From Acidobacteriota bacterium (GTDB lineage Bacteria; Acidobacteriota; Terriglobia; Terriglobales; Acidobacteriaceae), in the NCBI GenBank assembly GCA_021779935.1, contig JAJXZT010000003.1, positions 1 to 64,000 on the forward strand: 64,000 nt of DNA. The letters are read 5' to 3'. The notes beneath the pieces were generated by a model. That model was given only the letters and a program-made list of their open reading frames with translations. It was not told where the DNA came from and searched no databases. Position 1 is the stretch's first letter. Every line of letters starts with the position of its first letter. Below are positions 46,873 to 50,723 of the stretch, piece by piece. A program made the position numbers and the translations under genes.

Positions 46873-47318
46873 CTTACGTCTCCGGCACGCCTGCTACATC
46901 TGCTTTAAATACAGCATGTTAGCCTCGCGAAAACGAGGCCCGCGTGCGTTGAGGGACGGTACACCCTGACTCATTTTAGCACTGAAGGCCGGGGAGTGCT
47001 AAGACTCCGGCGCAGGAAGGTTGAGGGACTCCGTATCAGAAAAACGGGTACCGGCGATTCGCCGCAACAGGCAGTGCGAACCTGACCAGCACGGAGATTC
47101 CTGTTTATGGCAGACAAGAACAGCGCGGAGACCGTAGTGAGCAATTTGGAACAGGCACGCCCCAAGATTTTTCTTACCCTTGCTCAATTGAGATTTCAGA
47201 GGAAATCAAGTCTGCTCCGTTGAAGGTCAGTGCAGTTTTCAGGCTCGCACGCTGCAAGGCGCGGACAAATTGGGCCATCTTTATTAGACAAAATTCCAAG
47301 CTTCATCCAAGGAGAAAC
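46873..47318. other. Divergent region hrcA / BON gene, holding CIRCE
   Basis: These 446 bases hold the CIRCE element (46976-47002) and the promoter of hrcA, then the leader of the BON lipoprotein gene. A 38-residue frame at 47107-47223 starts behind CGGAG, but its product has no family resemblance and it was left out. Confidence 0.6.
46976..47002 (-). promoter_or_regulatory. CIRCE operator
   Basis: The consensus TTAGCACTC-N9-GAGTGCTAA is matched with one change: TTAGCACTG (46976-46984), nine bases, GAGTGCTAA (46994-47002). On the minus strand TAAAAT overlaps the end of the element and may be the -10 box. HrcA binding here would block the operon promoter. Confidence 0.92.
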
Positions 47319-47867
47319 ATGAAAACGTACAAACTGTGCTTAGTTCTACTGGCGCTGTTCGTAATTGGGACCCTTGCAGGGTGCTCAAAACGGACCACGC
47401 AATCACCCGCTGTTGAGGACAACATCCGCACTGCGCTCGATCAAGCCAGCCTCAAAGATGTCTCCGTAAGCCAGGATCGCGACAAAGGTGTAGTGACCCT
47501 TGGCGGACACGTCGCAACTGACGCGGATAAATCACAAGCCGAATCGATTGCAACGTCACTCGCGGCCGGACAGGTTGTCGCGAATCAGATTGCCGTGATT
47601 CCTCCCGGCGGCGAAAACGCTGCAAAGGCGGTGAACTCCGATCTCGACAAGGGTATCGAGAGCAACCTGCACGCCGCTCTCATCCAAAACAAGCTTGAGA
47701 AGAGCGTCAAATTCGAAGTCAAAAATGGCGTGGTCACGCTCAGCGGATTAGTCAACTCACAATCCAAGCGCGACCAGGCCGGAGAGATCGCTACTGCGGT
47801 TCCAAATGTGCAGCAGGTGGTGAATACCCTGCAGATTAAGAACCAGAAGGCCACTTCGTCGAACTGA
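47319..47867 (+). CDS. BON-domain lipoprotein
   Basis: The 182-residue protein has a lipoprotein signal ending in LAGC (Cys 22). Two BON domains follow: AVEDNIRTALDQASLKDVSVSQ..GVVTLGGHVAT and GIESNLHAALIQN..VKFEVKNGVVTLSGLVNS. BON proteins bind phospholipid surfaces and help keep the envelope intact under stress. The ATG at 47319 follows AAGGAG by 4-5 bp. A CsbD gene follows at 64 bp, so a small stress-gene cluster is likely. Confidence 0.88.
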   Translation: MKTYKLCLVLLALFVIGTLAGCSKRTTQSPAVEDNIRTALDQASLKDVSVSQDRDKGVVTLGGHVATDADKSQAESIATSLAAGQVVANQIAVIPPGGENAAKAVNSDLDKGIESNLHAALIQNKLEKSVKFEVKNGVVTLSGLVNSQSKRDQAGEIATAVPNVQQVVNTLQIKNQKATSSN

Positions 47868-47931
47868 GAGTTGCCGGATGCCGGAAAAAATTCTGGTTCA
47901 CACCGGCGAATCGCCGGAAGAGGAAAACAAG

Positions 47932-48111
47932 ATGAAAGAGAGCACGAAAGATCAACTCAAGGGTAAGGCACACGAGGTAAAGGGCGCCGTCAAGGAAAAG
48001 GCGGGCCAGGTAACCGACAATCGGGAACTCGAAGCCGAAGGCCGCCAGGAAAAGTTTGGCGGAAAGATCCAAAAGAAGATCGGACAAGTTGAGAAAGTTC
48101 TGGAGAAGTAA
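47932..48111 (+). CDS. CsbD-family small stress protein
   Basis: The 59-residue protein matches CsbD: MKESTKDQLKGKAHEVKGAVKEKAGQVTDNREL and a repeated GxxKEKxGQV-type half (GGKIQKKIGQVEKVLEK). CsbD proteins are induced by general stress; their function is unknown. ATG 47932 has AAGAGGA 8 bp upstream; the longer frame from 47878 adds unconserved residues. Confidence 0.88.
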   Translation: MKESTKDQLKGKAHEVKGAVKEKAGQVTDNRELEAEGRQEKFGGKIQKKIGQVEKVLEK

Positions 48112-48168
48112 GTAGCAAAGTAGAGATACTGTCACGTGCGGAATGTAAGTAGCTCATTGGCAGGCGCC

Positions 48169-48196
48169 CACGTTCAGGGTCGAGGCCCTGAACGTG
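48169..48196. terminator. 11-bp hairpin after csbD-like gene
   Basis: CACGTTCAGGG (48169-48179) pairs perfectly with CCCTGAACGTG (48186-48196). No T run follows, so it may be a terminator or an RNA stabiliser. Confidence 0.5.
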
Positions 48197-48284
48197 AGCA
48201 GTCGCGTTCCGCTAAAGGCAATTCCCGTTGAGTGGGTTCCGGTTGATCTGATGTAACGTGTTATCGATCTTTCTGGAGGGAGCC

Positions 48285-48593
48285 ATGGCAAGAGCCTTTC
48301 GTCTTTATTTAGTCGCCACAATTTTGTTCGTTATCGGAATCTTCCTTGTCGGGCAACAGTGGAAGGGAGATGCGGGGATCACCTTGGGATACCCGTTGTC
48401 CTCGTGCTCGGTGCACCTGAACGGAGCGGCCAACGGAGGCGTGGCATTCGCGGGAACACTGGTCGTCGCGATCTCGGCTATTCTCGCGGTGATCGCGTTC
48501 TGCATCGGAATCGTGGGACTGTTCCGGGTGACGAAGGCGGAGAAAGTGCGCGAGAAGCCGAAGAGCCCGACGGATACGAATACGACGACGTGA
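48285..48593 (+). CDS. Small membrane protein
   Basis: The 102-residue protein has two hydrophobic segments (LYLVATILFVIGIFLVG, and a second from VAFAGTLVVAISAILAVIAFCIGIVGLF) and a polar C terminus. GGAGGG lies 4 bp before ATG 48285. No family is recognised. It ends the stress-like cluster before the restriction-modification genes. Confidence 0.7.
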   Translation: MARAFRLYLVATILFVIGIFLVGQQWKGDAGITLGYPLSSCSVHLNGAANGGVAFAGTLVVAISAILAVIAFCIGIVGLFRVTKAEKVREKPKSPTDTNTTT

Positions 48594-48687
48594 TGAATGC
48601 ACTGAGTTGTTCGGGATGAAAGGTTCATCGCGAGCCCTATTTTAGTCGTTGCATGAAGCACGAACTTTCCGTAACTTTGTTCTTAAT

Positions 48688-49545
48688 ATGCGGCTTGCGT
48701 ATCAATCGGCCTTGGGACGTCTCTATGAGGCGGACTGCGTAGAATTCCTCAAGACAATTCCGTCGGAGTCTGTTCACACGTTTTTTGCAGATCCGCCGTT
48801 CAATCTCAGAAAGGAATACGGCAAAAAAGGGTCTGATTCGTTACCGGACCACGAATATCTTGAATGGAGCTGTAGCTGGCTTGATGAGGCCGCGCGAGTT
48901 CTCGTTCCCGGCGGCGCGTTGTTTGTCTACAATCTTCCCAAGTGGCTGATCTCGTACGGGGCACACCTGAATTCAAATTCCGCATTGACATTCAAGCACT
49001 GGATCGCGATCGACAAGGCTCATAGTTTGCCTATTCCTAATCGACTTTCGCCAAGCCACTACGGGATGCTCTATTACGTCAAGGGCGCTCGTCCAAGAGT
49101 GTTTGACCGGGACGCAGTGCGTATTCCGATTGCTGTCTGCCGTCATTGCGGTAAAGATGTCAAAGACTATGGCGGCCACAAGAAGTACCTCAATCCGAAA
49201 GGCCTCAATCTGAGCGATGTGTGGGACGACATACCACCCGTTCGGCATCGGAAATACAAGTACAGGACACCCAACGAACTAGCTCCCCAGATAGTGGAGC
49301 GTGTCATCCTTCTTTCGACAAAGCCTGGTGACGTTATCTGCGATCCATTTGTTGGAGGGGGGACAACAGCCTGCGTTGCCGAAAGGTTGGGACGGAAATG
49401 GCTATGCGCCGATCTGAATACGGTCTCCGCCGCAATAAGAAGGCTGTCGGATCTTGAAAACGGTGTACACCCAGTTTGGAAAAGCTCCTCAAAAACTCGC
49501 CCTGTGCCAAACGATTCGATTACAGAGCTGCCGCTCTTCCGTTAA
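48688..49545 (+). CDS. Type II DNA methyltransferase of BamHI-like system
   Basis: The 285-residue protein is an amino-methyltransferase of the beta order. Catalytic motif IV FADPPF (residues 35-38 DPPF) comes first and the S-adenosylmethionine motif DPFVGGGTT (residues 219-227) near the C terminus. Members methylate N4 of cytosine or N6 of adenine; adjacency to a BamHI-like endonuclease suggests protection of the same site. ATG 48688 (MRLAYQSALGRLYEADC) is chosen; a TTG at 48649 is in frame. It converges on the endonuclease, and both stops share the TTAA at 49542-49545. Base composition is AT-richer than the neighbours. Confidence 0.92.
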   Translation: MRLAYQSALGRLYEADCVEFLKTIPSESVHTFFADPPFNLRKEYGKKGSDSLPDHEYLEWSCSWLDEAARVLVPGGALFVYNLPKWLISYGAHLNSNSALTFKHWIAIDKAHSLPIPNRLSPSHYGMLYYVKGARPRVFDRDAVRIPIAVCRHCGKDVKDYGGHKKYLNPKGLNLSDVWDDIPPVRHRKYKYRTPNELAPQIVERVILLSTKPGDVICDPFVGGGTTACVAERLGRKWLCADLNTVSAAIRRLSDLENGVHPVWKSSSKTRPVPNDSITELPLFR

Positions 49546-50315
49546 CCCCTCTTGCTGTTGCCGTCGTTCCCAGTGGACACGAAATCCCGTAGGTCAGTGC
49601 TCTCAAATAATCTATCGTGTTCAACCTCTATGACGGCCAGAATGCCTTTCTGTATCAGCGTCCCGAAGCGGTTCCAAAAGTAGAAGTAGGGTTGAAGTTC
49701 CCGTATATTACCGATTCGGTCTGTCAGGTGCGGATATAACTTCGAGGAAGGAACGACTAATACGGCAGCGTCGGTTAGGCCTCCCATAAGGGCCAAGCAC
49801 ATTTTGTTCAGCGATCGATGCGACGAAGAAATATTCCCCGTTTCCCACTCAACTGCCGTTCTGAATCCACCCTTTGTTTTGAACCAGAAATCCAAGTCGC
49901 CGACGCTCTCGTTCAGTTCGATTCTGTCTGAATGTTCTACCTGCGGGTAATTTGGAAAAGACACCTTCTCGTCTTCTCGAAGACGCCTAAAAAATGGCAC
50001 GAGGCTCAATGGCTTCTCAGCCTTCCAGTGCTTCTTAGCCATCCAACTTCTGAACTGGTCACGAAGTGGACGAACTCCATTTCTCAGAGTCTTTTTCTTC
50101 TCGCCGACTGTCTTAATGACTCCCACTTCATCCGTGTATGTGCCACCCACGCGGATGGTAACGATCTTGGGAATCCTGAAGTCTTTCGCGCTTTTATTGT
50201 CGGGCCATCGCATCGCCCTGATTGCATTCGAAATAGCCTCATGCGCCTGATGCCAATCGGCACTCTCGACAATCTGACCCGAATCAGACAAAACGTAAGT
50301 ATTGATTATCTTCAC
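49542..50315 (-). CDS. BamHI-like type II restriction endonuclease
   Basis: The 257-residue protein is very like BamHI in its core. AVEWETGNISSSHRSLNKM (Glu156 and Glu158) matches the BamHI segment with catalytic Glu111 and Glu113. KLYPHLTDRIGNIRELQPYF matches the segment after it, and the tail TGNDGNSKRG matches the BamHI GSDGMSKR region. An Asp at 140 or 142 fits the first catalytic position. BamHI itself cuts GGATCC; the same site is likely but not certain here. The start is GTG 50315, overlapping the controller stop by 4 bp with AGGAGGG upstream. It is about 45 residues longer than BamHI, mainly at the N terminus. Confidence 0.9.
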   Translation of the reverse strand: MKIINTYVLSDSGQIVESADWHQAHEAISNAIRAMRWPDNKSAKDFRIPKIVTIRVGGTYTDEVGVIKTVGEKKKTLRNGVRPLRDQFRSWMAKKHWKAEKPLSLVPFFRRLREDEKVSFPNYPQVEHSDRIELNESVGDLDFWFKTKGGFRTAVEWETGNISSSHRSLNKMCLALMGGLTDAAVLVVPSSKLYPHLTDRIGNIRELQPYFYFWNRFGTLIQKGILAVIEVEHDRLFESTDLRDFVSTGNDGNSKRG

Positions 50316-50554
50316 CGGCGACCCTCCTCAAACATGAAGAGTTCGGCCACCGGGATTCTCAAAGCGGACGCAATACTCTCAAGATTTTCAAAGGACGGAG
50401 AGTTGCGCCCACGTTCAATTAGGCTCAGAAAATCGACAGAAATTCCCGCTTTTTCAGCAAATTGCTCTTGCGTAAAGCCAGCAGTCAGGCGAAGCGTACG
50501 AACACGCTTACCAAAACGTTCGCGGAGTGTTTTACGTTTCTCTTTTGTCGGCAC
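50312..50554 (-). CDS. Controller (C) protein, XRE-type helix-turn-helix
   Basis: The 80-residue protein has a helix-turn-helix (TQEQFAEKAGISVDFLSLIERG, about residues 28-49), the NSPSFENLESIASALRIP follow-up helix, and the size of restriction-modification controller proteins. Its GTG start at 50554 has no Shine-Dalgarno sequence, which fits the leaderless mRNAs known for some controllers. Two operator-like dyads lie 13-50 bp upstream. It overlaps the endonuclease by 4 bp (GTGA), so it should time endonuclease expression after methylation. Confidence 0.9.
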   Translation of the reverse strand: MPTKEKRKTLRERFGKRVRTLRLTAGFTQEQFAEKAGISVDFLSLIERGRNSPSFENLESIASALRIPVAELFMFEEGRR

Positions 50555-50567
50555 GACAGAATTGTTA

Positions 50568-50584
50568 CCGTAATACCATTACGG
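50568..50584 (-). promoter_or_regulatory. Controller operator dyad 1
   Basis: CCGTAAT (50568-50574), three bases, ATTACGG (50578-50584): a perfect dyad just upstream of the controller start. It is the better of two similar sites 21 bp apart. Confidence 0.7.
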
Positions 50585-50588
50585 GTAC

Positions 50589-50607
50589 ACCGAATGAGAT
50601 TACGGGT
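50589..50607 (-). promoter_or_regulatory. Controller operator dyad 2
   Basis: The right half ATTACGGGT (50599-50607) repeats that of dyad 1 and the left half ACCGAAT (50589-50595) is degenerate; centre 21 bp from dyad 1. TTGACC on the minus strand (50605-50610) is a possible -35 box beside it. Confidence 0.6.
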
Positions 50608-50669
50608 CAAACTCAGAACAAGAACGCCCGGCATTCTCAGAAGGCGTTGCAAAGAGCATCCCCAAAATC

Positions 50670-50707
50670 AAAAGCCCCACGCGCCTCTCGGCCTGCATGG
50701 GGCTTTT
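50670..50707. terminator. Terminator of mrp, stem with A/T flanks
   Basis: AAAAGCCCCA (50670-50679) pairs with TGGGGCTTTT (50698-50707) over 10 bp. It lies 17 bp after the mrp stop on the minus strand and could act in both directions. Confidence 0.8.
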
Positions 50708-50723
50708 CTATTTCCGACTTCTT

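Follow-up and report, generated by a model that had tools for sequence, protein, structure and literature searches.

A convergent restriction-modification system of the BamHI/OkrAI family with predicted CCGTAAT-type controller operators in an acidobacterial genome

Results

Organization and base composition of the locus

The window, by which we mean the whole 64,000-nucleotide stretch of DNA that was analysed, contains an apparently intact three-gene type II restriction-modification (RM) system consisting of a methyltransferase (M), a restriction endonuclease (R), and a controller protein (C) (Table 1). All three frames are open in the ORF list of the window. M is convergent with C and R, the stop codons of M and R being interlocked tail to tail in one GTTAAC that supplies a TAA to each, and C lies just upstream of R, overlapping its start by 4 bases. 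The divergent layout of M and C-R with C between M and R is not seen in the window. We observe GC contents of 0.519 (M), 0.490 (R), and 0.498 (C); the island (~0.50; window 0.592) falls within the lowest 0.3% of windows of the same size, and the GC3 of its genes is 0.44-0.57 versus 0.77-0.86 for mrp, hrcA, grpE, and dnaJ. An earlier sequence-only reading had placed M, R, and C genes here, with an XRE-type controller overlapping the endonuclease start and a higher AT content than the flanks. Each of these points is borne out, the gene assignments by Pfam matches to BamHI, N6_N4_Mtase, and HTH_3.

Table 1. Positions of the genes, operators, and insert in the window
Feature	Position	Strand	Description
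CIRCE element	46976..47002		HrcA operator
Insert between hrcA operator and mrp	47003..50723		RM system with genes for a BON-domain protein, CsbD, and a small membrane protein
Degenerate operator at M promoter	48669..48685	+	CCGTAACTTTGTTCTTA; left half-site only
M	48688..49545	+	Beta-order DNA amino-methyltransferase, 285 aa from ATG
R	49542..50315	-	BamHI-family restriction endonuclease, 257 aa
C	50312..50554	-	XRE-family controller protein, 80 aa, GTG start
OR, proximal C operator (predicted)	50568..50584	-	CCGTAATGGTATTACGG; 14-30 bases upstream of C start
OL, distal C operator (predicted)	50589..50605	-	CCGTAATCTCATTCGGT; 35-51 bases upstream of C start

The RM genes are part of an AT-rich insert of 3.7 kb in which three accessory genes lie beside them. 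The distance between mrp and hrcA is 3.85 kb in the window versus ~0.12-0.34 kb in five genomes of the same family (L053, L054, L055, L018, and L020); the neighbours of mrp differ in other relatives. Since the CIRCE element still adjoins hrcA and is parted from mrp by the insert, the insert can be placed roughly between the limits given in Table 1. Only short, chance-like matches were found when we looked for direct or inverted repeats bounding the insert as the mark of a mobile element. The BON-CsbD sequence is found elsewhere in genomes of the family, so the accessory genes need not have come with the RM system. The low GC content, together with the tightness of the mrp-hrcA junction in relatives, supports acquisition of the RM system by horizontal transfer, as the sequence-only reading had suggested.

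The endonuclease is predicted to have the BamHI fold

R matches the Pfam BamHI model (PF02923) at 1.1e-29, with 103.6 bits against a curated cut-off of 22.8, and the PADLOC type II REase model at 4.4e-40; no NCBIfam model matching R was found. Sequence matches in the PDB to OkrAI (2.4e-27) and BamHI (7.6e-15) climb to 8e-70 and 5e-54, respectively, with a profile of 11 relatives. In a full-length profile alignment, BamHI E77, D94, E111, and E113, the catalytic residues of its structures, align with E100, D142, E156, and E158 of R, all four of which are invariant in the 11-sequence alignment. BamHI N116, S118, R122, D154, and R155, which contact DNA in these structures, align with N161, S163, R167, D199, and R200, and all of the catalytic and base-contact residues checked also align with OkrAI.

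An AlphaFold2 model of R (pLDDT 74, pTM 0.74), built from an alignment with two rows from plasmid records left out, superposes on the solved structures of OkrAI, BamHI, BstYI, and BglII with VIA Z scores of 20.0, 19.2, 17.2, and 15.0 (the rest <7), and Foldseek matches the model to OkrAI at E 2e-12. R is therefore predicted to have the BamHI fold. The sequence-only reading had interpreted the system as a divergent relative of BamHI, citing the motifs AVEWETGNISSSHRS, HLTDR, and DGNSKR, all of which are present in R. The alignment of the catalytic Asp/Glu residues with those of BamHI and the superposition at Z 19-20 support this description, which can now be refined by the greater closeness to OkrAI, the convergent gene order, a control layout that looks like that of Esp1396I, and the inserts in R.

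OkrAI (PDB 3odh) is the closest solved endonuclease by both sequence and fold and has the same catalytic and DNA-contact residues; however, at 194 aa versus 257 aa it lacks two inserts of R (approximately residues 52-77 and 105-138). Identity to BamHI (PDB 1bam) is ~26% over the structural alignment, although the BamHI RM system shares with the window its R family, the catalytic and base-contact sets, separate M, R, and C genes, and an amino-methyltransferase. Both inserts are modelled at low confidence and are otherwise seen only in L002, the closest named relative of the system; they could alter recognition. R is the only BamHI-family gene in the whole host genome, and no relatives of it were found in viral contigs or in the phage records searched.

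GGATCC is the best-supported target

The match in family and fold and the retention of all the catalytic and base-contact residues checked make GGATCC the target with the strongest support for R. The five GGATCC sites that the sequence-only reading had listed are found at exactly 9527, 24004, 24543, 33468, and 44544. We count 494 GGATCC in the 4.49 Mb host genome, the lowest density among 41 genomes (the host and 40 relatives). When regressed on CGATCG and GGTACC, two six-base control words of our own choosing, across these 41 non-independent genomes, the residual is -0.60 log units (sd 0.25; ~2.4 sd) and ranks 1/41; against CGATCG alone the scarcity ranks 6/41, so that the result depends on the control words. 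This scarcity is suggestive of selection against the site, as would be expected if the RM system is active.

BstYI recognises RGATCY. Its superposition on the R model, the two inserts common only to R and the L002 enzyme, and the pairing of an M relative with a BglII-like endonuclease (L049, see below) would fit a member of the same family whose inserts and divergence have shifted the target to RGATCY or to a longer site containing GGATCC. We consider such a shift improbable, since every BamHI base-contact residue checked is kept in R and its sequence is far nearer to those of OkrAI and BamHI than to that of BstYI; how altered recognition segments look is illustrated by the L045 enzyme (SDIASSHHW, LAGR).

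The methyltransferase is short and of beta order

M matches the Pfam N6_N4_Mtase model at 7.6e-35 and the PADLOC type II MTase model PDLC03238 at 6.1e-93, the latter over profile positions 119-369 of 428. The catalytic motif IV (ADPPFN) comes first and the cofactor motif I (DPFVGGGTT) last, and M is therefore of the beta order as defined in PMC2890505, where M.BamHI and M.BglII are N4-methylcytosine enzymes. All aligned members of the M family have DPPF as motif IV. The frame is open from a TTG at 48649; the best start is the ATG at 48688, because the L002 protein aligns from that Met (MRLAY versus MRLAH) and the operator lies upstream in the same register. Since M.BamHI makes GGAT(N4mC)C (PMC3646050), our best guess by analogy is that the product of M is likewise N4-methylcytosine.

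M lacks the ~100-aa N-terminal extension present in the classic-layout relatives L006 and L007, plasmid-borne systems in which M is divergent from C-R, whereas in the window M is short and convergent. Several relatives in the phylum share the convergent layout, and a short M accompanies convergent genes in L002, L040-L043, L048, and L051. The long form also occurs in L050 (4637-5878), a BamHI-like system whose M N-terminus matches a helix-turn-helix model with a score under the Pfam cut-off and in which a separate XRE gene precedes R, possibly giving two layers of control. In L049 (1-2407), the neighbours of an M of the same family are an XRE gene and an endonuclease resembling BglII, whose match to PF09195 is below the cut-off; the target is thus not fixed by M alone, and this arrangement suggests that the M family serves different GATC-core endonucleases. 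No partner endonuclease was recognisable for the M-family relatives on Klebsiella and Acetobacter plasmids (L058 and L059).

The controller is preceded by tandem predicted operators

C matches Pfam HTH_3 (5e-15) and PADLOC Control_protein (3.8e-12), and in the PDB it matches C.BclI (1.5e-8), C.AhdI (4e-7), and C.Csp231I (2.9e-5). Two tandem CCGTAAT-type sites, 21 bases apart, precede the gene. They lie within a ~40-base block common to the window, L002, and the relic L047 (ACCCGTAATnTCnTTCGGTGTACyCGTArTGnnAyTACGG), beyond which the bases diverge. OL is invariant or nearly so in the three-way alignment with L002 and L047; in the matrix scan of the window no site scores higher, though OL is itself a training site. 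OR is a 7-3-7 inverted repeat conserved in both relatives, and in L002 it carries a compensating change that alters both arms (CGTAAT/ATTACG to CGTAGT/ACTACG).

Using a matrix built from the six C-promoter sites of the window, L002, and L047, with the M-promoter sites held out, we obtained scores at the M promoter of 4.0 bits in the window, 20.5 bits in L002, and 21.1 bits in L047. The held-out site ranks first in the L002 locus, where it is directly upstream of the ATG, and second in L047. The half-site CCGTAA of the window is 19 bases from the ATG of M, the same distance and register as the full L002 site. The matrix scan gave no strong CCGTAAT box near M or C in L040-L043, L048, L050, or L051. 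We infer that C regulates through the tandem predicted operators at its own promoter, as in a controller-type RM system, and the positions of OL and OR would suit a controller that activates from OL and represses from OR, provided that the transcript begins at the GTG or close to it.

XRE genes of a different helix-turn-helix type overlap the starts of BamHI-like R genes in L041 (3950-4180) and L042 (5869-6201) (QSFVSKYERGERRLD), as does another of a different type in L045 (5286-5528; QSFVSKFERGERRLD). These differing types suggest that the BamHI family has changed controllers several times.

Relatives are sparse and include a decayed copy

Few genomes of the phylum carry BamHI-family genes: the Pfam model finds them in 3 of 396, and a search with the R protein in the class found 11 of 399, fragments included. 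L002, a Terriglobia MAG contig (JAIQET010000003.1), has the same three genes in the same convergent layout, the same C-promoter operators, and the same R inserts, with identities to the window of 64% for R, 78-79% for M, and 69% for C. It differs in its genomic neighbourhood, in the full operator at M, and in a longer C-terminal tail of R. The acidobacterial host proposed in the sequence-only reading agrees with this Terriglobia relative.

L047 (4455-6663), from the same-family genome G084, carries a degraded copy of this subtype. C and the operators are intact there, whereas only approximately the first 65 residues of R are left, with a TGA in frame, and M is in pieces. An unrelated ORF of 302 aa, which weakly matches the type II endonuclease model PDLC03534 (5.4e-6), separates what is left of R from what is left of M. 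Such an orphan controller might trigger early expression of the endonuclease of an incoming relative. In the BamHI-like R of L045 (5525-6121) the recognition segments are changed (WETSDIASSHHW, LAGRIGN), and the L045 stretch yielded no M to match it; this enzyme has either decayed or changed its specificity.

Discussion

In the Esp1396I system C-R and M are convergent, with OL and OR at C-R and OM at the transcription start of M (PMC4041747). The window has the same C-R operon convergent with M and two operators at the C-R promoter, while the Esp1396I operator at the M start has a full predicted counterpart in L002 and L047, of which the window keeps the left half. However, the Esp1396I operators are GACT-based with a central TATA (PMC3758141), in contrast to the CCGTAAT core found here; the comparison made with Esp1396I is one of regulatory layout. 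By analogy, the locus looks like an Esp1396I control layout on BamHI-type enzymes.

Altogether, we think it very likely that the system in the window is of type IIP, belongs to the BamHI/OkrAI family, is intact, was acquired horizontally, and works as follows. R, probably a dimeric PD-(D/E)XK-type enzyme, would most likely cut unmodified GGATCC, and M would most likely place N4-methylcytosine on the inner C of this site, so that the host is protected. C would bind the distal operator first, activating C-R, and then the proximal operator, repressing it, such that R appears only after the chromosome has been protected by M. In this subtype the M promoter would have been a further target of C, as it is in Esp1396I; the M operator of the window has lost half its symmetry, and M is therefore probably little repressed.

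That the locus is a non-functional remnant, with genes intact but silent or with R inactive and the system retained only as a methyltransferase, is highly improbable: decay does occur, as in the same-family L047 copy with its intact C and broken R and M, but the three open frames, the intact catalytic residues and C-promoter operators, and the scarcity of GGATCC in the genome argue for a genuine, probably active BamHI-family system. A bolder account of its history, to which we give some credence though we doubt it, is that a BamHI-type lineage swapped its layout and controller-operator code for an Esp1396I-like CCGTAAT circuit, with the window copy starting to free M and the R inserts tuning recognition.

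The system is a real, ordinary defence system and a new member of the BamHI family with mildly unusual regulation. What distinguishes it is the convergent layout, the short M, the Esp1396I-like operators whose core is unusual, and the inserts in R, which make it a slightly unusual member and not a new kind; similar layouts may already be in REBASE. The BamHI family is thereby extended to one more lineage, and the system provides a natural variant of control wiring that can help to study how a restriction system comes to exchange its controller while its host survives. As a practical warning, DNA containing GGATCC may be cut when the host organism is transformed.
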